Origin: a virus
Direction: 5' to 3' (one strand)
DNA length: 21,159 nucleotides
IMG/VR virus record: IMGVR_UViG_3300021376_000426
Coordinates: 1-21,159 of that record
The notes beneath the pieces were generated by a model. That model was not told where the DNA came from. It was given only the letters and a program-made list of their open reading frames with translations, and searched no databases. Position 1 is the stretch's first letter. Every line of letters starts with the position of its first letter. Positions 2,561-18,484 of this stretch are shown piece by piece. A program made the position numbers and the translations under genes.

Positions 2561-3973
2561 TCAACGGAAAAGGTCAACAACGTAAGAGTTGACAAGGTGG
2601 GAGCGGAACGTGACCCGCTCAGCCGGGTAAGGGGGAGTGAACTCAAAATCGAAGAATACTTGCCCGTTGGCAATGTTTTCGGGGCTGTTGAGTTCCGGGT
2701 CCACCCACACGTCAGCGCCCAGCAGGGCGCCGCGTGCCTTCAGATTGCGCAGGTAGGCACGCACCGACTCTTGGACTTCTTCCAGGTAAGTCGCTGTGAT
2801 GCAGCGGTCCACGGCCCACAGGTGGCCGCGCAGGATGCTTTCGTTGATCATGTCGGCGGTGCGCCGCACGCTTAAGAAGGCATAGAGGGGGTCCATTGCC
2901 AGGGTGCGGTTCCCCCACAGACGGAAACCCTGCTCACGAACGATAGTGGCAATCTTGGCTTCGTTCAGCAGGTTGGCCCGGCTGGTGTAATCGCCCAGGG
3001 TGAAATCAATGGCGCGGGCAGTGCCCTCAATGCCATTGATTTCGTTGTTGCTCGGGCTCCACCAGAAACCGCGCTCGTTATCCATTTTGTTGATCAAGCC
3101 GGCCACAGCAGGCGAAGCGGGGAAGGCTTCACCGTTGCGGATGATCCAGGGATCAATGACGTAGATGCGGTCGCTGCCAAAGTCGTCAGCGATTTGGATG
3201 GCGGCTGCGTCGTTGCTGTTGGGGCCGTCAACAATGATCACAGCGCGGAGGCGCTGTGCAATGCCCAGCATCTCAGCAACTACCTCGCTTCTGACGGCGC
3301 CACGTTGCACGGTGCCGGCTACCGCCTGTGTGCCACCGGCGGGCGGCGCTGCGATGGTGATGGTGGGGCTGCTGTTGTAGCCGCTGCCAGGGCTGTCAAC
3401 AATAAACTCAACGACCTTGCCACTGTTTGCGCCAGTGCCCAAGCGAGCGCGGATCACAGCGCCGCTACCGCCGCCACCAGTCACGGTCACTGCGGGGACA
3501 GTGGTGTAGCCCGCGCCTTGGTTGCTGACCGCGATTGACAGAATGCCGTTGCTGGCCCGCTGATGGGTGAACTCCGGCGCGATCAGGATGCGGGGCGCAA
3601 AGCCCACGGCGTTTTCCGCTGCCAGAAAAGCGTGAACACCCTCGTACTCGCCAGTGGTTTCATTGATTCCGCCGACCACGTTGTTGATCGTGGCGTAATC
3701 GGTAGACGCCTCTTCAACGCGGACGACAATAACAACGGCGCCAGCCTGGTCGTAGATCAGGTCAAGGGCCTTAAACAAAGTGCCCTCTTCGCCTAGGCCG
3801 ACCATTTCTGAGCGGCGAGCCAGCAGGACCGGCGTGTTAATAGGAAACTTTTCGGCGTCGGCGTCAGGCGCAGTGCCGATCAACCCGACGACGCTGCTGC
3901 GGACGGTTTGAATCGGGCGAGTCCCAGAGTCAATCTGGAGGACTTCAACGCCGTGAAGAAAGGTTGTGGTCAT
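2561..3973 (-). CDS. Contractile tail sheath protein (P2 FI family) with an inserted repeat domain
   Basis: This 470-residue protein starts MTTTFLHGVEVLQIDSGTRP, typical of P2 FI-type sheaths, and continues through SSVVGLIGTAPDADAEKFPI. The C-terminal half holds the conserved core, including DRIYVIDPWI, GFWWSPSNNEINGIEGTAR and the ending RSHLVNSYVVDLFR. It would polymerise around the tube and contract during infection. P2 FI is about 396 residues; the extra length is explained by an insertion at about residues 141-228 made of two related units, GAGYTTVPAVTVTGGGGSG and GSGYNSSPTITIAAPPAGG. The insert lies between the segment ILIAPEFTHQR and the following core segment AQRLRAVIIVDGPNSND, a region likely to face outward. 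A strong AAGGAGG site lies 10 bases upstream of the ATG. Family call firm; the insert's role is unknown. Confidence 0.96.
   Translation of the reverse strand: MTTTFLHGVEVLQIDSGTRPIQTVRSSVVGLIGTAPDADAEKFPINTPVLLARRSEMVGLGEEGTLFKALDLIYDQAGAVVIVVRVEEASTDYATINNVVGGINETTGEYEGVHAFLAAENAVGFAPRILIAPEFTHQRASNGILSIAVSNQGAGYTTVPAVTVTGGGGSGAVIRARLGTGANSGKVVEFIVDSPGSGYNSSPTITIAAPPAGGTQAVAGTVQRGAVRSEVVAEMLGIAQRLRAVIIVDGPNSNDAAAIQIADDFGSDRIYVIDPWIIRNGEAFPASPAVAGLINKMDNERGFWWSPSNNEINGIEGTARAIDFTLGDYTSRANLLNEAKIATIVREQGFRLWGNRTLAMDPLYAFLSVRRTADMINESILRGHLWAVDRCITATYLEEVQESVRAYLRNLKARGALLGADVWVDPELNSPENIANGQVFFDFEFTPPYPAERVTFRSHLVNSYVVDLFR
3290..3553 (-). repeat. Two-unit GxGY repeat domain inserted in the sheath gene
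   Basis: Within the sheath, residues about 144-179 and 187-224 follow the same pattern: a hydrophobic strand, then GxGY, then a V/I-rich strand (PAVTVTGGGG or SPTITIAAPP) and a Gly/Ala/Thr-rich stretch. This looks like a beta-strand repeat used in phage surface proteins. It is not part of the usual P2 FI sheath core. The boundaries are estimated from where the sheath-like sequence breaks and resumes. Confidence 0.7.
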
Positions 3974-4371: not shown

Positions 4372-6642
4372 TTAGTAACCAGAAATGGGCAGGGGATGGA
4401 ACTGGCCCCTGAGCGTGAAGGAGATGCTGGTTTGCCCCCAGGTGTTGTTTCCGCCCACGTAAACCGTGCCGGACTGGCCAATGGCTGCCCAGCAAGATTC
4501 GCCAACATGTGGGCTGATGTGCGTGAAATCCACAAAGGGTTCAGGCTGGGTCCAGACAGGTGTGAAAACTGCGTGCTGGGTGTTTGCTGAAGCAGAGTTG
4601 TTGATGTTGCTGAACTGCGTAAATACAAGTGGGCTTGTACTCCAAGTGCCAGCGATGTAAATCTGGCCACGGTCGTCCAGCAGTGTGACCGAGGCGTTTG
4701 TCGAGCTTTGGTAACCGTTGCAGAAAACCGCAACAGGCTTACCGAAGCGGAACTGTGTGGTGCCCCAAGTAGATGAATACTGAGTGGCGAGAATTTCCCC
4801 AGGGAACACAGATGCAGAGCCGGCGGCCTGCAGTGGATCACCGTAATCGCGGAAAAGGATTTCGCCTGGGAACCAGTTGCCAATCACCGTCGCGCTTGAG
4901 TCGCTGCTGGTGGACACGTTACGGCCAAGCTGCCCGCCGGCATTGTTGCCCCAGGAGTAAACCTTTGGCTGCACAGCAGTTCCGCCGTCAGTGATGACGT
5001 AAATGCTGGGGTATCGGCCGCCACATACCCACATGGAAACCACTTTCTGGCCGCCGGAATTGAAGGTTGTAGAAGCGTTAGTAATTTCCACCGGCATGGA
5101 ATTATTTGCGCTGGTGGAGCTGTAAACACCGGTATAGATACCAAAGGCATCGTTCCTGCCACAGGCATAAACGCGGCCTTCAGAAGTCAGCAAGAAGGTG
5201 CGGCCGTGATTTGAGTCGCCGTCTGTGGCCACAACGTGGACGATTTTCTTGCCGTTGATTGCCGAGTTGGCAATGGCGGTAATTTCAACCGGACGATTCT
5301 GGTTGGTCGTGTTGTTAATGCCTAACTGGCCATGAGCGTTGTAGCCCCATGCGAAGCATTTGCCAGTTGCTGTGATTGCGAAAACATGTGCGTATTGCCC
5401 ACCGCTAACGGTGATGTACTCAACGTTTTCATTATTGAAAAAGCTGCGAGCTATACGACGTGCAAAGTAGTTATTAGTGGTTGTGCCATCACCAATTTGG
5501 CCATAAGCGTTGTAACCAAAGGCGTACACGTTGCCATCAGTGTCTAACGCATAATGTGCGCCGAGAGTGGTATTGGCGTCACTCGTTGCAGAGCTGCAGA
5601 AATGTTTGATTTTAGGCCGCGCAGCGTCCACAAGAATCGAATTAGATTCGCTGTAAAACTGCACGGGGACGGCAGCATCCATTTGAGTTGGCGTGGTCCC
5701 GTTGCCAACTAGGCCTGAAGCTGCATAACCAGCGCCATACAGGATCCCGTTTTCGCTCAGGTGGAAACTGTTGAAAAAGCCAGAATGGGTGCGGATGATC
5801 TTTGGCTGACGGGCAATCGTGTCAGTGATCGGCAGGCCATCCAGCGTCGTGGCAAACTTTGCGTGATTGGTGTCACCAGCCAAAGCCTTCCAGTGGAAGT
5901 TCGGCACGCGGAACACCGTTGGGAACGATGGGACGTTGATTGCGTTGTAGTCGGTGCCTATGCCACCAGCGTTGTAATAATTGCCGTTGGTTGAGTCGTT
6001 GTAGTTGTTGCCCCATGTGAAATGCCGTCCGGAACGGCTGATATACCCGCCACGGCGGTAGCCGATCCAGCTGGACGGGGCTTGCTTGCCACGGCCGTAC
6101 TTGGTATGCGGCAGCGCGGCATGGCCAGCCCCTGTGAGGTTGTAGTTGCTGTTTGGAAAGGCAAAGCCGAGGGCGCCTTTTGTGGCTTCCACGGCGGCCA
6201 GGGCGGCGGCTTGACTGTTGGCAACTGACGCAACGGCGCTTTGAGCGGTGGTTTGCGCAGTGGTGGCCGTGGCGAGAGCCGTGTTGGCGGTGGTTTGGGC
6301 AGCGCCTGCGGCAGTTTGCGCAGTCCCGGCTAAGTTGTTTGCAGCGGTCAGGGCGTTTGTAACCGTGACCGAGAACGCCTCGTCATTGTTCAGCGCAAGG
6401 GCCAACTCGCCCAAGGTGTTCAAGGCGCCAGGGGCCCCGGCCATCAGGCTGTCTACAGCCTGCTGAACCAGTGCCTGAACCTGCGCTTGGTTCAGCTTTG
6501 TAGCCAGCGCAGTGAACAGCGCGTCTACGTCCACGTCAAGGGCTTGCAGGGCGTCACGGAGACGCACAACATCCTCGGCCAGGAGGTTGGAAGGGAACGG
6601 GAGCGGATAATTCCGCTGAGCGGTGCGGGTGTCAGTAGGCAT
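4372..6642 (-). CDS. Tail fibre with RCC1-type beta-propeller domain
   Basis: This 756-residue protein has three parts. Residues 1-95 look like a phage tail fibre attachment region, including MAGAPGALNTLGELALALNN, the PGALxTLxELAxAL motif common in tail fibres. Residues about 95-155 are an Ala/Thr/Gln-rich stretch likely to form a trimeric coiled coil. The rest contains RCC1-like blades: GILYGAGYAASGLVGNGTT (about 299), GNVYAFGYNAYGQIGDGTTT (370), GKCFAWGYNAHGQLGINNTT (426), GRVYACGRNDAFG (489), KVYSWGNNAGGQLG (560), a weak GQIYIAGTWS (659) and GTVYVGGNNTWGQTS (725). About seven blades fits a closed propeller. It probably binds a receptor on the host surface. It starts 4 bases after the DUF4815 gene. 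The propeller region is visibly richer in A and T than its neighbours, which suggests a separate origin. The fibre role is inferred from motif and position. Confidence 0.85.
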   Translation of the reverse strand: MPTDTRTAQRNYPLPFPSNLLAEDVVRLRDALQALDVDVDALFTALATKLNQAQVQALVQQAVDSLMAGAPGALNTLGELALALNNDEAFSVTVTNALTAANNLAGTAQTAAGAAQTTANTALATATTAQTTAQSAVASVANSQAAALAAVEATKGALGFAFPNSNYNLTGAGHAALPHTKYGRGKQAPSSWIGYRRGGYISRSGRHFTWGNNYNDSTNGNYYNAGGIGTDYNAINVPSFPTVFRVPNFHWKALAGDTNHAKFATTLDGLPITDTIARQPKIIRTHSGFFNSFHLSENGILYGAGYAASGLVGNGTTPTQMDAAVPVQFYSESNSILVDAARPKIKHFCSSATSDANTTLGAHYALDTDGNVYAFGYNAYGQIGDGTTTNNYFARRIARSFFNNENVEYITVSGGQYAHVFAITATGKCFAWGYNAHGQLGINNTTNQNRPVEITAIANSAINGKKIVHVVATDGDSNHGRTFLLTSEGRVYACGRNDAFGIYTGVYSSTSANNSMPVEITNASTTFNSGGQKVVSMWVCGGRYPSIYVITDGGTAVQPKVYSWGNNAGGQLGRNVSTSSDSSATVIGNWFPGEILFRDYGDPLQAAGSASVFPGEILATQYSSTWGTTQFRFGKPVAVFCNGYQSSTNASVTLLDDRGQIYIAGTWSTSPLVFTQFSNINNSASANTQHAVFTPVWTQPEPFVDFTHISPHVGESCWAAIGQSGTVYVGGNNTWGQTSISFTLRGQFHPLPISGY
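4380..5760 (-). repeat. RCC1-like blade repeats in the tail fibre
   Basis: At least six divergent copies of the pattern G-x-hydrophobic-Y/F-x-x-G-x-N-x-x-G-Q-L/I-G occur, spaced about 57-100 codons apart. The copies are diverged at the DNA level, so this is an old protein repeat rather than a recent DNA duplication. Confidence 0.75.
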
Positions 6643-6646
6643 TGGT

Positions 6647-9600
6647 TCAGACCATCACTGCGCGGATGTTGCGGACCTTTGGCCTGTGGGCCGCCGTTCC
6701 GGTGAGGTTTAGCTTCACCTTGGAAGCCGACAGGCCCACAATACCGGTGTCCTGATAAACGTACTCGACGTAGCCATCCCCGATGGGGGTGGCCTTGAGC
6801 AACGTCATGTTCTGGAAACCGTTCTTGTCGTACTGAGGCACCACGGTTGAGGAGCCGGGGACAAGCGCATCGAAAATGACGCGCATGGTGTTTCCGCCGG
6901 AGCCGACCAGGAACTGACGGCTCTGGTAGAAGCCGCTTGTATCCAGGCTGCCAACCACCGACTGGACGCCGGTGTAAAGCACTGGGCTTTCTGTGGCTGT
7001 TCCTCGCAGAATCGCCTGCACCTGCATAGTGTCGTTGATTGATGCGGCGAACTGGACGCCTTGGCCTGCAGCCAGCGTAAAGGTTTCTCCAGTGGTCCGG
7101 GTGTAGCGGAAGAAGAGGTCGGTGTTTTCGCTGGGCAGTTCCACAGCAGCCACCACCAGCAAGTCGGTCATGCCGCTTACCGTAAGGCTGCCCAGGTTGA
7201 ACACCTGTTCAGTGGCCGTGAAGTTGGCCCCAACGAGGCGGAAAGTTAAATCCTTTTCTTGGTGAGCTGTCCAGGTAACGTTATTTGAACTGCTAAGCAA
7301 CACGCCAATCGTGTAAGGCTGCGCAGTCACCCAGCGTGCCGCTGTGGAGTCGTACTTGCCAAGCTCTGCCACGCGTACCGCATGGTTTGCGTCGTCGGTG
7401 AGCAGCACGATGAAATACTCAACGCCGCCAACCAAGTACACAGGGGCGCTGAAGCTAGCCCGAACGTAAGTGTTCGTTGTGACAATTTCGTTAGGTTGGA
7501 TTATTGTTTGAGCAATGACGGTTTCAGTTGGGAAGCCGTTGCTGCTCTCACGGATTTGCACCTGGACAGGCTTGTTTGCACCCTTCACAGCAAACTTCAG
7601 GTCAATAGCCTTGATGTGGCGTGATTGCTGGAGGGTAAAACTCTGCGCCAGCGGGTCAGGACCACGAGGGGCAGGCGGCGGTGGATTCCAGCGAGTAGTT
7701 GTGGTTGTGGTGGTTTGCCTGAAGTTGCGAATGAGCAGGGTGCCTTGGCCCGTGTAGACCGCAGAGCCGAAGCTGCCCTGCACGCCAATGAACTCGACCA
7801 GCTTGCTGCCAGCGGGAACGTTGGGTGGAACTGTAAAGGAGCCGCTGAACGAACCAGAAAGGTTGGCGACAACCCCGCTGGGGGTAATGTTGCGCCCGTC
7901 AAATCGCAGTATTGAAAGACCTTCGTTTGGCCCGAAACCGCTAACACTGAAATTAACAGTAGTCGCTCGCAGAAACTCGATTGCGCTTCTGCTTTCGCTT
8001 ACAAGGGTTGTAACGGTGCTAGTGCTAGTGCTGCTTTGGCTGCCACTGCCAAAGACAAACGCTTGCGTAGCAAAAGTGGTCGCATTTTCGGTGACTGTGT
8101 AAAGATCGAGCGCCGGGTTTAGAACCACAGCAGCAGGCATCGGATCAAAGCTCTGGTACGGGTTGATTTTCATTTCACCCGTGCGCAGCTCTTGGCCGAT
8201 CAGCACTTCATCAGTTGAAGGCAGCAGTTTCGTTGCCGTGTTGTTCAAGGTTGCCAGGACAGGCGTGCCGCTGATAGCAAGCTGCAGGTCTTGGCCTACA
8301 ATCACAGCGTCTTGTTCTACACCTGCATCGCGCAAATCGTCGTCAAACAGCGGGTCAGTAAATACGCCGTATTTTGCCGTTGGCTCTTTCGAGCTAATGT
8401 CCCGCTGCAAGCGCTCATCGGCTACGAGATTGTATAGCTCAATAACTGATTCCTTGATTTGCCGCTGTTCCTTCATTGAAACAACGCGAGTACCGTCGTT
8501 GAATGTGCGCGGAACTTTTGTGCTTATCCAATCGTGGTAGATGCTGGCAAGTTGCAGCAAAACGTCAGACACGCCGGGCCGAATTGGATTAAACGCCGAA
8601 GGCACACCCTTGACTCGACTCAGCACGCCTTCGCGGTCAAGCACAATCGCGTCGAAGCGAGGCATTTTCCAGCGGTAGTCATTCAGGACCAAAGTGTTCG
8701 CTACGGCGCCCTGGATTTGGAAGGTGCCGGCGTCGGCGTTGATGTTGGTTGGGGTGACGCTTTTGAGGAACCGGTATGTGACTGTATAGGTGCTGCCAGG
8801 GGCAGGCTCTGGACCGTTTGGGCTCCAGTCCACCTGATCAGCTGTGAGGTTGTAGCTAGTGCCTGCCTGGAAGGTGGTGGTTCCTTGCTTCACCTCTTCA
8901 ATGCTGAGCACTGCAGTATTTGGCAGCGCATCCAATGCCCCAGTGAAAGATCCGTGGGTCATAGTCACGGTTTCTTCAGCCGTGATGACCACATCCATAA
9001 TATTGTTGAGCGGCTTACGGTTCAACGAGATTGTCTGGAGCGCCGTGCCGGTGCTTACCTTCGGCTCATTTGTAATGGTTTGTAAATCAGGGTCAATTCC
9101 AAAGCTGAGGGGCGAAGCCTGCGGCTTGTCAATTTTGTTGCCCTCAACGTTTGCAACACCTTCCTGAACACTAAACACGTAGTTCGTCTGGGTGTTGTCT
9201 TTGCCCAGTGCAAACAGGTTCAACCCGTTGACGATGTAGTTGCCGTTGGCGTCGCGGTCATAGCGGGCCAGAAGCTGCTTCACACCATCAAGCTGAGGCG
9301 GCGCTTCCTGGTTCAGCAACACGCCGTCACGTACGGCGTACACGGTGTAGAAATCGCCGGTACCACCGTCGCCATTCCAAGCCCAAGTGACCGTCCGACG
9401 GGTGCGGCCAGCGCCAGATTCTTGGTAGTTGCGTGTGCCCACCGCAGGGTCGCGCAGCGCAGGTGACTCAAGCTCTGTGATGGTTTCCGTTACCACTCTG
9501 ACGCCGATCTGCACGTCACCAGTTGTTGGGATCGTGTAGTTCGAGGCTGCCACCTCACGCACTGCGCCCAGTACATAGACGGCGCCGCTCTCCATTTGCA

Positions 9601-9811
9601 CGTAGCCGGTTTGTGCGTCAATGGCTGCGGATGCGCCGCGCACAACAGAGCCATCGCGGAACAGGACGTTGGCAATTTTCTGCAGGCGATCGCTGAAGAC
9701 CGACTGGATCTCGTTCAGTTCCGCCGACTGAAGGCCTTTGCTGGCACGGAACAGCAGCTCGTCGTAACGATCTGCGGCGCTGAAACGGTTGTAGTAGCCC
9801 TGGAGTGACAT
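6647..9811 (-). CDS. Large DUF4815-type virion/adhesion protein
   Basis: This 1054-residue protein starts MSLQGYYNRFSAADRYDELL, followed by a long conserved-looking N-terminal region (ELNEIQSVFSDRLQKIANVL, FRDGSVVRGASAAID) that I recognise as DUF4815, a family found in phage tail regions. Near residues 694-715 there is a linker of seven threonines followed by WNPPPPAP. A second globular domain then starts with DPLAQSFTLQQSRHIKAID. It is rich in beta-strand pattern and includes a lectin-like stretch (VQVQIRESSNGFPTETVIAQ), a style seen in cyanophage structural proteins. It lies between the gpI/collar genes and the RCC1 fibre, so a baseplate-attached fibre or fibre hub is likely. GAGG precedes the ATG and the stop is 4 bases from the next gene. 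The exact role is unknown and DUF4815 has no defined function that I can state. Confidence 0.8.
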   Translation of the reverse strand: MSLQGYYNRFSAADRYDELLFRASKGLQSAELNEIQSVFSDRLQKIANVLFRDGSVVRGASAAIDAQTGYVQMESGAVYVLGAVREVAASNYTIPTTGDVQIGVRVVTETITELESPALRDPAVGTRNYQESGAGRTRRTVTWAWNGDGGTGDFYTVYAVRDGVLLNQEAPPQLDGVKQLLARYDRDANGNYIVNGLNLFALGKDNTQTNYVFSVQEGVANVEGNKIDKPQASPLSFGIDPDLQTITNEPKVSTGTALQTISLNRKPLNNIMDVVITAEETVTMTHGSFTGALDALPNTAVLSIEEVKQGTTTFQAGTSYNLTADQVDWSPNGPEPAPGSTYTVTYRFLKSVTPTNINADAGTFQIQGAVANTLVLNDYRWKMPRFDAIVLDREGVLSRVKGVPSAFNPIRPGVSDVLLQLASIYHDWISTKVPRTFNDGTRVVSMKEQRQIKESVIELYNLVADERLQRDISSKEPTAKYGVFTDPLFDDDLRDAGVEQDAVIVGQDLQLAISGTPVLATLNNTATKLLPSTDEVLIGQELRTGEMKINPYQSFDPMPAAVVLNPALDLYTVTENATTFATQAFVFGSGSQSSTSTSTVTTLVSESRSAIEFLRATTVNFSVSGFGPNEGLSILRFDGRNITPSGVVANLSGSFSGSFTVPPNVPAGSKLVEFIGVQGSFGSAVYTGQGTLLIRNFRQTTTTTTTRWNPPPPAPRGPDPLAQSFTLQQSRHIKAIDLKFAVKGANKPVQVQIRESSNGFPTETVIAQTIIQPNEIVTTNTYVRASFSAPVYLVGGVEYFIVLLTDDANHAVRVAELGKYDSTAARWVTAQPYTIGVLLSSSNNVTWTAHQEKDLTFRLVGANFTATEQVFNLGSLTVSGMTDLLVVAAVELPSENTDLFFRYTRTTGETFTLAAGQGVQFAASINDTMQVQAILRGTATESPVLYTGVQSVVGSLDTSGFYQSRQFLVGSGGNTMRVIFDALVPGSSTVVPQYDKNGFQNMTLLKATPIGDGYVEYVYQDTGIVGLSASKVKLNLTGTAAHRPKVRNIRAVMV

Positions 9812-9818
9812 GGCAGCC

Positions 9819-10304
9819 TCAGAAAGTCAGAACGAACTCAAAGGTTTCGCGAGTGGCTGGCGTGCGAATAATCGCAGGCACATGCTCTAGCAGGTAGAGC
9901 GTGCCAGGGCTCTGAACCTCCTCGACGTCAAAGAATAACTGTCCTTGAGGGAGCCCGGTTTGAACCACAGTGTCTAGCAAGATGCCAGTTTCACGGATGG
10001 TCGCTGTGCTGGCGTTTTCAAAATCGAGTGTAAACCGCAAGTAAAGGAAGTTTGTCTGGGCAGTGCTGAGGTCGTATCGCCCGCTGGGCAGCACAATCGC
10101 GCCCTCAACTGCTGGGAGCACAAAACTCACCTGAGCAGCCTTGCGAAAACCGATGGCGGAAAGGAGCGCACTGCTGGAAATGCTTTCAGGCGGGGTGCCA
10201 GCATCATCCCAGAGGGGGCTGCCGGCGCCTACGCCGAGGAAGATGTTGCGGGCTGCGACAGAAGCCGCCAAACCGGCGCGGCCTGAGGTCGTGAGGGTTG
10301 CCAT
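9819..10304 (-). CDS. Conserved tail-collar/fibre-associated protein
   Basis: This 161-residue protein starts MATLTTSGRAGLAASVAARN and ends RETFEFVLTF. Key segments are IFLGVGAGSPLWDD, NFLYLRFTLDFENASTATIR and LPQGQLFFDVEEVQSPG. I recognise the pattern as a conserved protein found just after gpI-like genes in Mu- and P2-like contractile-tail phages, sometimes annotated as a tail-collar or fibre-region protein. It is predicted to be largely beta-strand. It may join the baseplate to the fibres, but that is inferred from position only. AGGAGG lies 10 bases before the ATG, in the 42-base gap after the gpI gene, which is the longest gap of the operon. Confidence 0.72.
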   Translation of the reverse strand: MATLTTSGRAGLAASVAARNIFLGVGAGSPLWDDAGTPPESISSSALLSAIGFRKAAQVSFVLPAVEGAIVLPSGRYDLSTAQTNFLYLRFTLDFENASTATIRETGILLDTVVQTGLPQGQLFFDVEEVQSPGTLYLLEHVPAIIRTPATRETFEFVLTF

Positions 10305-10346: not shown

Positions 10347-13208
10347 CTAGGTGAGGGTTTGATGGTGGCTCTGAACGAAACGATAAGTTGGGTTCCATGC
10401 TGCGTCATTGTTCGGGTCTGTCGGCAGCCAGGGTTGACCGTATTGATCAATCCATGGCTCCGTTGATGCCCAGCCATTTGCCACGCCAAGCATCCAATCT
10501 GTAGCCGCCCACCCAGCATATGGCCAGGGCTGGCTTCCTTCAGTCCAGGCGTCGGTGTCGTCGCCGGTCCAGTTACCAGCCTGCCAATCTGGCGTGTCGG
10601 CCGTGGTCCAGGCTTCGGTTTCTTCCCATGCAGCGAGCGTGAAGTGGCGGAACGATGTGTGGCTGCTGCGGGTGTGTTGCGAAGTGGCACCTGGCGCGGC
10701 CAGGGCTGCGCTGGCGTGGAAACGGTGGATGCCATCTGCATATCTGGAGTGGGCGCTTGCAATCTGCAGGCTCGTGGGGTTCCAGGCCACACGCTGCGCC
10801 CACAGATTGTCGTTCCAGAAGCCCGCTGCCCCTTGCGACCAGTAGTTTTCGGTCCAAGATGCAGCGCCCCAAACCTCGCCGCCGGTTGCCCAAGCCTCGG
10901 CTCCATCGCCGGCCCAGTTGGCCTGACTCCAGTCCGTGAACAGGAACCGGGCGATTTCTGTCTGGCTTGTGCGGGTGTGCTGTGAGGTTGCGAAGCCCTG
11001 GCGATTTTCGACCGGGCCGGCCGATGCAAAACTCCGCTCGTACCGCTGCTCTTCTGCAAACCCAAGGACAGCATTGCTGGAGCCCAGGGGGTCGCTGTCG
11101 GAGAGATATATACCTGCGCGAAGCTGCCGTCCAGCAAAACTTGAATACAGCGATTGCCAAGGCCCAGCATCTGCCCAGGTGGGGTGATGGTCCCAAACGG
11201 GAACGTCGGCCACATAATCGTTCCAGGCCAGCCCGTTCCATGCGTATGCATCCAGCCAGTGCGGCCGGCGTTGCGCTGCAATGGCCGGATCTGTTGTGCT
11301 GTCCCAGTTGCCGTCCGCCCATGTAATGAGGGTTTGCCAGGCAGGCCGAGCCACATCGTGCGGATATGGCAGCCAATCGATTTGAGACGCCCAAGTATTG
11401 GGGTCCACCGGTGCGCCCAGCAGGTTGAGCGCATGGTTGCGAGACAGCGTTTGCAGGTCCTGCACGACCGGGAACTCGCCCAGCAGGTGGAGGTCCAGGG
11501 TGAAGCTGTCCTGGTAGTCCAGAACCCGCGCAGTTTCGCGGGTGTGTGCTGCCAGGTTGCCGCCAGGCGTGTGCGCCGAGCTGGTGGTTTGGTAGCCGCG
11601 ATCGAACCGTTGCTCTTCCGCAAATCCAAGAACTGCGTTGCTGGAGCCCAGCAAGTCGCTGTCGGACAGGTAAAGCCCAGCGCGGTACTGCCGTTGGGCG
11701 GAACTTGTGTACAGCGACTGCCAAGGGCCAGCATCGCCCCAGGTGGGGTGATGGTCCCAAGCTGGGACAATGGCCTCCAGGTCGCTCCAGGCAAGCTGCC
11801 CCCATGCGTAGGCGTCGGCCCAAAGCGGCCGGCGTCGCGCCACCTGTGCCGGGTCGGTGACTCCATCCCAGTTGCCGTCTTCCCAGGTGATGAACGATTC
11901 CCAAGAAGGCCGGGCAACATCGTTCGGGTACGGCAGCCAATCAATCTGCGAAGCCCAGGTGTCGGGATCAACCGGAGCGCCGAGAAGGTTGAGCGCATGG
12001 TTGCGGGAAAGCGTCTGCAGATCCAGGACCGGCGGGAACTCACCCAGCAGGTGCTGATCCAGCAGGAACTGGTCGTCCAGGCCATCAACAATGCGGCACC
12101 GCTCACGCGAGACGGTGACATGGCTGGCAACGTCGGCCGCCGCAACCCCCACAGCGGAATGATCGCGATCAAAACGCTCCAGCAGCTCGTCATATTCAGT
12201 CCAGCTTTCGTGCTGGCTGAGGATGTTGAATCCAGTGGTGGGGTCGCCTTCGCTGAGCAGGAACGGCCCGGCGCCGTACTCTTCCTCAGTGCGTGCAGAG
12301 AAGCAGGCGTTTGTATCGTCAAGGGTTGCAGCATCGCTGAGGTACAGACCAGCCTTGGCAAACTTGAGCGGCGGCAGCACCGAATTAGTGGTGTTCCAAC
12401 CGAGGACGGAATCCCAGGTGCCGTTTGTCCAGTTAGTGCCAGGACCGGGTAGTGGCCCGTGGGTGATTTCGATCATCCGCGAGCGGACAATGATGCCCAC
12501 ATCGGACAGGTGCCAGAACTCGTCGAGCTGGCTGTTGCTCAGCGTGAAGCGATCTTCGTAGAGGCCGAGCATCCCGTGGATGCGCTCAATGCCAAGCTCG
12601 CCAACGCCGTCGTCGCTGTAGTCGTCGTTGATTAAAAACTTGCGGCCGAAGCTGAGCTGCGGCCAGTCAGGGCGCAAATAGACGCCAGTGTGGTCACACA
12701 ACCATGAGCCGCTACTTAGCCCGTGGTCGTCGAGCAAGAACCGGCGGTGGTCGTAGCCGCTGTAGACCCTGAACAGGTTTGATCGCACTGGCGCCGAAAG
12801 GCGCGACACGCCGATCAGCCCGTTGGTCACATTCAGATCGTCGGGTGCCTGGTCTAGGCCGAGCTGAAACTCGGCCCAGCGCAGCGTCCCAGCTTCAGAC
12901 TCTTCAACAAATGGGGCAAAGCCAATCCATCTGAGTGCGGTTTTGAGGGCTTGCGGTGTGCCCCTGATGCGCTGCCATAGCACGCCTTCAGCCAGGGCCT
13001 GGCGTTGGTTGTTGCCCAGGTAGGGCAGCAGTTCATTCAGACCGTATTCATATATCAGCCACGGAACGACGCTGTCTGGAATGTCTATCCGTTTGGCTGT
13101 GCGGATCTTGCCAACGGGTAGGCCAATACGCTCCAGACTGGATGTAGCACGCGAAAAGTCCCGCTCAAGCGTGGTCGCGTTGGGCGGCAGCAGGTCGTAA
13201 AGGCTCAT
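10347..13208 (-). CDS. Greatly enlarged baseplate protein gpI (P2 I-like N-terminus plus repeats)
   Basis: Residues 1 to about 190 match the P2 tail protein I family: start MSLYDLLPPNATTLERDFSR, then the core IPDSVVPWLIYEYGLNEL and RIRGTPQALKTALRWIGF. P2-type gpI is usually near 180-220 residues, whereas this protein has 953. The extra part holds a degenerate repeat (about 258-370), two close tandem copies of 188 residues (about 372-559 and 560-747) and a tryptophan-rich tail with two 101-residue-spaced units (from 742 and 843). The start overlaps gpJ's stop by 4 bases (ATGA), as expected for the J-I pair of the baseplate wedge. The extension is probably exposed at the baseplate and may bind fibres or host glycans, since the many Trp and Asp residues would suit carbohydrate binding; this is inference. 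I do not recognise the extension's family. Confidence 0.88.
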   Translation of the reverse strand: MSLYDLLPPNATTLERDFSRATSSLERIGLPVGKIRTAKRIDIPDSVVPWLIYEYGLNELLPYLGNNQRQALAEGVLWQRIRGTPQALKTALRWIGFAPFVEESEAGTLRWAEFQLGLDQAPDDLNVTNGLIGVSRLSAPVRSNLFRVYSGYDHRRFLLDDHGLSSGSWLCDHTGVYLRPDWPQLSFGRKFLINDDYSDDGVGELGIERIHGMLGLYEDRFTLSNSQLDEFWHLSDVGIIVRSRMIEITHGPLPGPGTNWTNGTWDSVLGWNTTNSVLPPLKFAKAGLYLSDAATLDDTNACFSARTEEEYGAGPFLLSEGDPTTGFNILSQHESWTEYDELLERFDRDHSAVGVAAADVASHVTVSRERCRIVDGLDDQFLLDQHLLGEFPPVLDLQTLSRNHALNLLGAPVDPDTWASQIDWLPYPNDVARPSWESFITWEDGNWDGVTDPAQVARRRPLWADAYAWGQLAWSDLEAIVPAWDHHPTWGDAGPWQSLYTSSAQRQYRAGLYLSDSDLLGSSNAVLGFAEEQRFDRGYQTTSSAHTPGGNLAAHTRETARVLDYQDSFTLDLHLLGEFPVVQDLQTLSRNHALNLLGAPVDPNTWASQIDWLPYPHDVARPAWQTLITWADGNWDSTTDPAIAAQRRPHWLDAYAWNGLAWNDYVADVPVWDHHPTWADAGPWQSLYSSFAGRQLRAGIYLSDSDPLGSSNAVLGFAEEQRYERSFASAGPVENRQGFATSQHTRTSQTEIARFLFTDWSQANWAGDGAEAWATGGEVWGAASWTENYWSQGAAGFWNDNLWAQRVAWNPTSLQIASAHSRYADGIHRFHASAALAAPGATSQHTRSSHTSFRHFTLAAWEETEAWTTADTPDWQAGNWTGDDTDAWTEGSQPWPYAGWAATDWMLGVANGWASTEPWIDQYGQPWLPTDPNNDAAWNPTYRFVQSHHQTLT
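10365..10985 (-). repeat. Tryptophan-rich C-terminal repeat pair in the gpI-like gene
   Basis: Two diverged units start with SQHTRTSQTEIARF (residue 742) and SQHTRSSHTSFRHF (residue 843), 101 residues apart. Both then carry W-rich segments (NWAGDGAEAWATGGEVWGAA and NWTGDDTDAWTEGSQPWPYA) and a closing AWNP motif. The last unit has 12 tryptophans in about 105 residues. These are unrelated in pattern to the 188-residue copies apart from the shared HTR motif at the junctions. Confidence 0.75.
10968..11531 (-). repeat. Tandem repeat copy B in the gpI-like gene
   Basis: The second copy follows immediately in the same frame, with HLLGEFPVVQDLQTLSRN, GAPVDPNTWASQIDWLPYP, WDHHPTWADAGPWQSLY and GIYLSDSDPLGSSNAVLGFA. 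Over the 150 best-aligned residues about four in five are identical to copy A by eye, so the duplication is fairly recent. Differences cluster in short patches and there is no frameshift. Confidence 0.9.
11532..12095 (-). repeat. Tandem repeat copy A (188 residues, 564 bp) in the gpI-like gene
   Basis: The first complete copy encodes HLLGEFPPVLDLQTLSRN, GAPVDPDTWASQIDWLPYP, WDHHPTWGDAGPWQSLY and GLYLSDSDLLGSSNAVLGFA. Matching DNA landmarks recur exactly 564 bases away (for example GTTGAGCGCATGG at 11988 and 11424 on the plus strand). The outer boundaries are approximate. Confidence 0.9.
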
Positions 13209-14526: not shown

Positions 14527-15028
14527 AAGGGTTCAGGTCAATTCTCGCACCGATGATCTTGACGTTGCCAGACGCGTTGATTTCCACGTCGCCAGACGCC
14601 TTGATTTCCACGTCGCCTTTTACGTCCATTAACAGCTTGTGGGCTTCACGGTCATATTCGATCACAGTGCCATCCTCGAAGGTTTGGCGTTGCACTGTTG
14701 GGCGGTCAGCGTTCTGGTTTTCGTTGCTGAATGCTGCTGGCAAAGCCACAGCATTCGCCAACTCGCCAGAAGGTGCCAGGACCAGCATGACTTCGCCCAC
14801 CTCGGGCGCCCACCAGAACTTATCGTTGCCGGCCCGCAGGGTCATCCACGGAATCCAGTCGGTTGTCAGTTCACCATCCTGCAACTCCACACGAATGACA
14901 GCTTTGGCGTAGTCAGCCTCCTTCACCACGCCATATCGGATGGCGTTGCTGAGCTGGCGGGCGCTTTCTGTGTTTTCGTAGGAGCCAACGCCGGAAGTAG
15001 TTTGGTCGTCGCGGTTAGCTCCGAGCAC
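14525..15028 (-). CDS. Baseplate spike protein V (P2 gpV-like)
   Basis: This 167-residue protein begins at a GTG (15026-15028), the only possible start because an in-frame TAG lies two codons upstream. An OB-fold region (RYGVVKEADYAKAVIRVELQ, then WWAPEVGEVMLVLAPSGEL) identifies it as Phage_base_V. After a short linker (DGTVIEYDREAHKLLMDVKG) the C-terminus has an 8-residue repeat (DVEIKASG, DVEINASG, NVKIIGAR), the pattern of the trimeric beta-helix needle that punctures the host membrane. It ends ARIDLNP, without the HxH iron-binding tip found in P2 gpV and Mu gp45. The start overlaps the upstream gene by 14 bases with no good Shine-Dalgarno sequence, suggesting coupled translation. Confidence 0.92.
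   Translation of the reverse strand: MLGANRDDQTTSGVGSYENTESARQLSNAIRYGVVKEADYAKAVIRVELQDGELTTDWIPWMTLRAGNDKFWWAPEVGEVMLVLAPSGELANAVALPAAFSNENQNADRPTVQRQTFEDGTVIEYDREAHKLLMDVKGDVEIKASGDVEINASGNVKIIGARIDLNP
14561..14624 (-). repeat. 24-bp tandem repeats encoding the spike needle
   Basis: Nearly identical 24-base units, with TTGATTTCCACGTCGCC on the plus strand repeated at the expected spacing, encode successive 8-residue strands of the beta-helix. The two central copies differ by very few bases, indicating recent duplication or pressure to keep the strand pattern. Confidence 0.8.
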
Positions 15029-16618: not shown

Positions 16619-18484
16619 TCAGGCGCCGGTGGACTTGTAGAAGCCCCGGTGGTTCAGCAGGGTGCAGCCGAAGTCGAGGCGGGCGTAGATGGTAGTGCCA
16701 TCAGGATCGCGCTCGTTAACGGTTTCAACCTGGGGGCCAGCCTCGCCGTCGAGATAACCGAAGGCGATCATGTCGATTTGGGCTGGGTCAGCGGAGACGT
16801 AGTAGACGACTTCGCTGGCGTCATCGAGGCGGGGCTCAACGATCAACGACATGGAACCGGTGAAGATGTTTACGTCGCCGGTGGTGTTTGGCTGAATGGG
16901 GCTCAGGAATTTCTGAGCCGCAGTTTCCAGGCTGGTGGGCAGGAGCATGTAGCGCGGCCGCAGGTTGATACGGTTGCCGGCAATGTCCTTCTGATTGCGC
17001 AGGGCCTTACGGGCTGCAGAAATTGCAGCTTCACCGATAACACCGGCGCCCTGGTTTGCGTGGTCGGCATGGAATAGCGCCTTGCCGTCGTAAGCCATCT
17101 TGGCGTTGGAAGTGATGAGCTTCCACACTTCGTTTGACTCAAACAGGCTCATGCCCCGGCCGATCATCGAGGGGATGCGGCTGAGAGCATCCAGATCATC
17201 GTTGATGATGAGCTGGCGGGTGACGCTGATTTTCTTGCCGTAGGTGTAGATCCGCCAGGAGCTTTCTTGCTCCTTAACGGTTGCGGCCTTGTATTCACCG
17301 CCTTCGAGCAAGGGCTCAGGGGTGATTTGGCCGGCAATTTCAAGCTCGTACACGGGCTTGAAATCAGGCAAGTTCCGCTGACGTGCAATCGGGCGGAAGG
17401 TTTGCTGCTCCTCGGCGTAAGCGTTTGCCAGGGTCTTGCGAGCAATGTTGCTCAGCAGCTTGGGAAAGTCGCTGGTGGAGTGCATGGCACGGCCGGCGAT
17501 TTCCGACTTGCTCATGCCTACCAGGCTGTGACCAGAGCGCACGAGTGCGTCTTTGGCCATGTCAATCAGGCTGCTGTGACCATAGGCGCGTGCCTGATCG
17601 TCCCACTCACGAAGGCCACAACGGGCCTCCAAAGTGGCGGTCATGCACTCGCTGCGCTTCTGGCCTTCGTCGGCCAGCACCTGCACGTGAGTACGGGTTG
17701 GCGCAGCAGCTTCGCGCTCTGCCATTTTGTCAATGATGCATTTGCGGGCTTCGTCGATGGCAATGCCATCTTCTGCCAGTTTGTCGGCCAGGGAGTCATC
17801 CAGCCCAGCGGCGCGAACGGAACGGCGGATTTCCGCCACCCGACGACGCTCAGCAGCGATGACAGCCTGGATGTCCTCGGGGGAGGCGACGCGGTCCTGG
17901 GCCACAGGGGGCTCAGGAGCAGCGACCTCCAGTTCGCGGGTGTCTTCCATTGGGCTGGTGTCCTTTACAGGCTCGTTGTGAACTGTAGGCGGCTCATCTG
18001 AGCGCACCTGGGCCCCTGCATCTGCAGGGATTGGGACAAGGGAAAGTTCATGGGGTTCCCAGTCCACAGCACGCATCACCGTGGTATCACCCTCAGTGCT
18101 GCGCTCGTATTTCCAGACGCGGTAGCCCACCGAAATGGACCTGATTATGCCGTCACGCACATCCCGGAAGATGGGCTCAACGTCATCGCGGCTGGAAAAC
18201 CGCACTACGGCGCGGCCTTCGTTGCCGTCCAGCCAGGCACGCTCAACCACCCCAACAATGTCGGAGAGCTCGAGTGCGCTATGACTGTTCAGCAGCGGGG
18301 CCCCGGCGTTCAGGCGTTCCATGCGGATCGCCTTCTTGTCCATCGACAGCTCCTCCATGAAGGGGCCGTCGAAGCCGTAGCGTGCCACCCGTGCGCCTGT
18401 GGTCCACACGACCTCGACCGTGCGCTGTTCGGCGTCAACGGTCTCGGGTGCGAACATCGCCCGAGTTTGGAGTAGTTCGCTCAT
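16619..18484 (-). CDS. Fused prohead protease-major capsid protein
   Basis: This 621-residue protein combines three roles. Residues 1 to about 160 are an HK97-type U35 serine protease, with the catalytic His at about 68 (LLNSHSALELSDIVGVVERA), the catalytic Ser at about 118 in IIRSISVGYRVWKYE and the closing motif WEPHELSLVPIPAD. Residues about 190-335 are charged and helical (EDIQAVIAAERRRVAEIRRS), acting as a scaffold/delta domain. Residues about 345-621 are the capsid protein, with TYGKKISVTRQLIINDDLDA, MAYDGKALFHADHANQGAG, RPRYMLLPTSLETAAQKFL and a C-terminus LLNHRGFYKSTGA. The protease would cut itself and the scaffold away during maturation. GGAG precedes the ATG by seven bases. Fusions of this kind are known in some phages and no frameshift separates the parts. 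Confidence 0.94.
   Translation of the reverse strand: MSELLQTRAMFAPETVDAEQRTVEVVWTTGARVARYGFDGPFMEELSMDKKAIRMERLNAGAPLLNSHSALELSDIVGVVERAWLDGNEGRAVVRFSSRDDVEPIFRDVRDGIIRSISVGYRVWKYERSTEGDTTVMRAVDWEPHELSLVPIPADAGAQVRSDEPPTVHNEPVKDTSPMEDTRELEVAAPEPPVAQDRVASPEDIQAVIAAERRRVAEIRRSVRAAGLDDSLADKLAEDGIAIDEARKCIIDKMAEREAAAPTRTHVQVLADEGQKRSECMTATLEARCGLREWDDQARAYGHSSLIDMAKDALVRSGHSLVGMSKSEIAGRAMHSTSDFPKLLSNIARKTLANAYAEEQQTFRPIARQRNLPDFKPVYELEIAGQITPEPLLEGGEYKAATVKEQESSWRIYTYGKKISVTRQLIINDDLDALSRIPSMIGRGMSLFESNEVWKLITSNAKMAYDGKALFHADHANQGAGVIGEAAISAARKALRNQKDIAGNRINLRPRYMLLPTSLETAAQKFLSPIQPNTTGDVNIFTGSMSLIVEPRLDDASEVVYYVSADPAQIDMIAFGYLDGEAGPQVETVNERDPDGTTIYARLDFGCTLLNHRGFYKSTGA

Follow-up and report, generated by a model that had tools for sequence, protein, structure and literature searches.

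A P2-type baseplate wedge protein gpI with a repeat-built C-terminal arm that varies in unit number among related phages

Introduction

Baseplate wedges have the composition (BW2)2-BW3, with a single BW3 chain per wedge, and RBPs attach to the BW3 proteins, a class that includes P2 gpI, pyocin PA0619 and T4 gp7 (Sonani et al., PMC10811340). In Listeria phage A511, the extended BW3 chain crosses each of three BW3TFN dimers like beads on a string (PMC10811340). The A511 genes gp104, gp105 and gp106 encode BW3, BW3TFN and a DUF4815 protein, in that order; the BW3 is 1309 aa long, has no Tail_P2_I match, and has been extended by Ig and F5/8 type C domains. A long BW3 followed by BW3TFN is also found in phage TmpF/ORF63 with ORF64 (PDB 9euf, 9tic). 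In the PDB, chains of ORF64 (BW3TFN) are about four times as numerous as those of ORF63 (BW3) in a count pooled over entries, a ratio that agrees with several connectors per BW3. Both systems come from phages of Gram-positive hosts, and neither A511 gp104 nor TmpF/ORF63 has tandem Trp-rich units. In Vp4, a protein of the wedge periphery, Gp119, is enlarged by added modules extending to the host (PMC11406892); these are recognisable carbohydrate-binding modules, and the conserved domain of Gp119 resembles A511 gp105 rather than gpI.

Here we describe a gpI protein from a viral contig, IMG/VR record IMGVR_UViG_3300021376_000426. The window, 21,159 bp, is the entire record and part of the genome of a contractile-tail phage. 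Its gpI has the position and wedge role of the BW3 proteins named above and shares the Tail_P2_I domain with P2-type gpIs, but the P2-type gpIs that we found are about 180–215 aa long and have neither arm nor Trp triplet. Among its closest described counterparts are the gpIs of Acidithiobacillus phage AcaML1 (523 aa, 38% identical) and Wolbachia phage WO (386 aa, 32% identical), which belong to the same baseplate cassette. Both align over residues 6–346; the alignment stops at about residue 346, and tandem units of the window type are absent from both.

Results

The window carries an A511-like baseplate cassette

The window encodes terminase, a lambda-family portal, capsid, gpV, gpJ, gpI, BW3TFN, a DUF4815 protein, an RCC1-bearing fibre-like protein and sheath. 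The order gpV-gpW-gpJ-gpI, typical of Tail_P2_I/BW3 wedge proteins, is present, with gpV and gpJ assigned by Pfam and the 112-aa gene between them called gpW from its position. Four genes are central to this work:

10347–13208, minus strand: gpI/BW3 wedge protein gene, 953 aa
13205–14176, minus strand: gpJ/BW2 wedge protein (Baseplate_J, Pfam)
9819–10304, minus strand: BW3TFN connector (PF25691, E 3e-43; PDB relatives 9tic, 9fko, 9euf and 6hhk), putative binding partner of gpI
6647–9811, minus strand: DUF4815 protein, homologue of A511 gp106 and third member of the cassette

The window has the gene arrangement of an A511-type BW3 rail, a long BW3 gene followed by BW3TFN and DUF4815 genes in the A511 order. 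The order gpI-BW3TFN-DUF4815 is found in nearly all relatives (46 and 45 of 48 records). A genome scan gave weak host hints only, with identities over the wedge domain of 63% for a Synechococcaceae MAG and 48% for Cyanobium.

Several other features of the window were recorded. The fibre-like protein (4372–6642, minus strand) combines a tail-fibre-type N-terminal part with RCC1 propeller repeats and is possibly the receptor-binding tip. Residues ~144–234 of the tail sheath (2561–3973, minus strand) match parts of large virion/fibre proteins (phrog_701, phrog_5342) and probably form an inserted surface domain. At the 3' end of gpV, a 24-bp tandem repeat (14562–14617) codes for repeated DVEI-type motifs, as expected of a spike. 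The N-terminal stretch of the capsid protein (16619–18484, minus strand) is weakly similar to prohead protease S78 (E 0.06), and this protein is possibly a protease-capsid fusion.

gpI is a conserved wedge domain followed by repeated units

The N-terminal part of gpI is a normal P2-type wedge domain, as an earlier sequence-only reading of the window had proposed, and is followed by ~760 extra residues, here called the arm. Tail_P2_I (PF09684) matches residues 7–114 with an E-value of 2e-15 and 57.3 bits, against a curated cut-off of 20.6; the narrower NCBIfam equivalog TIGR01634 scores 22.5, under its cut-off of 30.05. A further family, phrog_17612, matches residues 6–352. The parts of the protein are:

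12639–13208, minus strand: conserved P2-type wedge domain, residues 1–190 (Tail_P2_I at 7–114; many invariant columns)
12081–12560, minus strand: ancestral unit U0, residues 217–376, homologous to U1 and U2, with one Trp triplet (260–271)
11517–12080, minus strand: tandem unit U1, residues 377–564, from self-alignment
10953–11516, minus strand: tandem unit U2, residues 565–752, from self-alignment
10749–10988, minus strand: Trp-rich tail repeat T1, residues 741–820
10362–10685, minus strand: Trp-rich tail repeat T2, residues 842–949

Off-diagonal self-alignment of gpI scored 832, compared with 45–53 in four whole-protein shuffles, and bore out the predicted in-frame tandem duplication, with a period of exactly 188 aa (564 bp). 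Residues 377–536 and 565–724 are identical at 123 of 160 positions (77%) in protein and 75% identical in DNA, with dN 0.17 and dS 1.09. Because the alignable identity ends near residue 540/728, each unit appears as a repeat of ~163 aa plus a variable linker of ~25 aa. A second duplication lies in the last 200 residues (~741–820 and 842–949; score 144, shuffle maximum 71), which the sequence-only reading had missed. That reading had also placed a third, decayed copy before the tandem pair. A homologous preceding unit does exist, U0, but on sequence grounds it is the ancestral copy and not a decayed one: it persists in relatives that lack the tandem pair, and between the window and its relative L003 it is better conserved (80% identical) than the tandem units (73%). 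The wedge domain is 90% identical between the same two phages, with an omega of 0.055. The arm is likewise under purifying selection, with an omega of about 0.14 in each unit.

The contig comes from a metagenome assembly, and we therefore considered whether the duplication is an artefact. With the two copies 25% apart in DNA (dS about 1.1), it is very unlikely that a single unit was duplicated falsely. In addition, a second contig (L002), which may represent the same population as the window phage, has a single mismatch in 12,230 bp (99.99% identity) and shows the same structure at an unchanged copy number, and tandem units also occur in relatives of another group. With copy divergence and the matching second contig taken together, we rejected an artefact, which we regard as extremely improbable.

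Tryptophan positions are fixed between units and orthologues

After residue 377, gpI contains no Lys and no Cys, Trp makes up about 6.5–10%, and the composition is acidic and of low complexity. The arm holds 13 triplets of the form W-x4-6-W-x4-9-W, a pattern absent from the sequence-only account; the shuffle mean was 2.0, and none of 1000 shuffles reached 13. Between U1 and U2, all 11 Trp residues are kept with unchanged spacing, compared with 112 of 149 other residues, and the window gpI shares 37 of 38 aligned Trp columns with that of L003.

Residues 377–953 had no Pfam or PHROG family match at E<=5, and none of the known adhesion domains sought (LamG, Ig, CBM) was matched there in the same searches. 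Neither gpI nor profile A1 had a credible sequence match in the PDB. With the arm alone as query, the sole match among viral contigs was the same phage. Judged by domain matches, the arm showed no homology to A511 gp104. AlphaFold2 modelled full gpI with a pLDDT of 39 (31 alignment rows), reaching moderate confidence only in parts of residues 50–150, and unit U2 alone with a pLDDT of 46 and a pTM of 0.20 (39 alignment rows), which gave no usable arm fold. The low confidence for the arm may reflect merely thin alignments.

Unit number varies among relatives and modules are exchanged

We collected relatives through gpI and, separately, through BW3TFN. The shortest of their gpIs has about 280 aa and the longest 1031 aa, and the A511 BW3 is longer still, so the enlargement is not peculiar to this protein. 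The anticipated difference in copy number between related phages was present. The gpI of L003 (764 aa) lacks exactly one unit's worth of sequence as one contiguous block, residues 351–539 (189 aa), and by a module-A profile the relatives bear 0–3 units beyond U0, with diverged U0 copies and zero-unit forms assigned by reading alignments. Through BW3TFN we also found a sister group (contigs L111–L133), whose gpIs are 757–1031 aa long with 2–3 tandem units. On a wedge-domain tree of 21 rows, a quick tree with several weak forks, at least nine changes in unit number were needed.

U1 and U2 are slightly more identical to each other (77%) than either is to L003 (74% for U1, 73% for U2), and their dS is slightly lower, which suggests that the duplication happened at about the time of the split between the window phage and L003, or a little later. 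We also observed exchange within the arm. Two contigs, L007 and L008, are 98–99% identical on both flanks of the following block, but inside the arm one has 136 nt where the other has an unrelated 97 nt:

gpI nt 1195–1330 in L007, 1195–1291 in L008: swapped block in the gpI arm

From the range of unit counts, the L003 difference and this swap, we conclude that the arm evolves by gain and loss of units together with module exchange. In the window gpI, a BW3 wedge protein, the C-terminal arm is built from repeats; relatives differ in the number of units, and modules are exchanged. DUF4815 length was also considered as a correlate of copy number and dropped: in freshwater-type relatives it stays near 1050 aa whatever the number of extra units (0 to 3).

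Arm features are associated with connector and fibre genes

A Trp triplet in the C-terminal region of gpI was compared with the presence of BW3TFN. Both were present in 49 cases, BW3TFN alone in 5, the triplet alone in 0, and neither in 20. This association follows ancestry, which confounds it, and the cases may not be independent. A second association involves an EDG-type hairpin. All six gpIs that have it (one of them recognised by eye, not by pattern) are accompanied by an extra fibre-like gene at the gpI stop codon, compared with 0 of 46 others. These extra genes, which start at that codon in contigs L019, L024, L028, L038, L040 and L058, have a common LPIVDVSEP N-terminus and variable C-terminal parts. 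Some relatives have LamG or Ig-like domains at the end of gpI, at the site of the window's arm.

Discussion

What is the arm for? The gene order shared with A511, together with the associations of Trp triplets with BW3TFN and of hairpins with fibre genes, the amplified triplets with their conserved Trp, and the varying unit number and swapped modules, suggests that the arm is a docking rail to which connectors and fibres attach, with duplication having lengthened it and module swaps having rearranged it. We put the chance that this reading, drawn from sequence and from analogy with A511, is right at about one half. One gpI chain would leave each wedge, and the Trp-rich segments and short hairpins of its arm would bind BW3TFN connector dimers; these in turn would be joined to the DUF4815 protein and to the tail fibres, as in the A511 beads-on-a-string arrangement. 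Duplication of a unit would then add docking sites and lengthen the arm, and whole units could be lost, gained or exchanged through recombination between their conserved parts. The duplicated Trp-rich module of the window gpI probably serves BW3TFN; that each unit binds one BW3TFN dimer is a further and weaker step. Against a rail, the A511 BW3 sequence has no such Trp repeats, AlphaFold gave no confident arm fold, and the LamG and Ig ends of relatives show that the arm can also terminate in binding domains.

Those ends, which occupy the same place in gpI, also favour a serious and plausible rival, to which we give a clearly smaller though substantial chance: the arm may itself be an adhesin, its repeats binding the host surface directly and its duplication raising avidity or reach. 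This was the sequence-only view, a growing adhesin built onto the baseplate, and the repeat-built, changing extension that it described is real. Trp is frequent in sugar-binding sites, and modules of the arm are swapped between near-identical phages, as is often the case for receptor-facing parts. Vp4 Gp119, a wedge-periphery protein that has carbohydrate-binding modules, binds cells (PMC11406892). However, the lack of an adhesion-domain match in residues 377–953, the lack of a confidently predicted autonomous fold, the purifying selection on each unit and the separate fibre-like protein encoded by the phage all speak against a direct adhesin, and the trimeric form suggested for it is not expected, since each wedge has one BW3 chain. 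The wide range of gpI lengths across the family and the low-complexity, acidic, Lys-free composition would also suit a structural spacer or strap without specific ligand, for example one that ties adjacent wedges together or fixes how far the fibres stand off; since the positions and spacing of Trp are fixed between units and orthologues beyond what a passive spacer needs, we consider this improbable. Gene neighbourhood and the associations between modules and fibre genes fit the docking rail better than the adhesin.

Long BW3 proteins and the BW3 rail were already known. Neither the family libraries nor the open-access papers searched contained a wedge arm of tandem Trp-rich units that varies in copy number, and this arm appears to be new: a previously undescribed Trp-rich repeat family whose likely partner is encoded next door. 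How the number of RBPs per baseplate is set in contractile phages is known from few structures, and the gpI family, with its range of 0–3 extra units, offers a natural series for comparing valency, reach and adsorption. It is conceivable, though we think it rather unlikely, that repeat number acts as a genetic dial for connector dimers and hence fibres per wedge, each tandem unit recruiting its own BW3TFN dimer and inter-unit recombination shifting valency between near-identical phages. If the arm is indeed a docking rail, the number of its repeats may set the amount of host-binding hardware that each virus carries.
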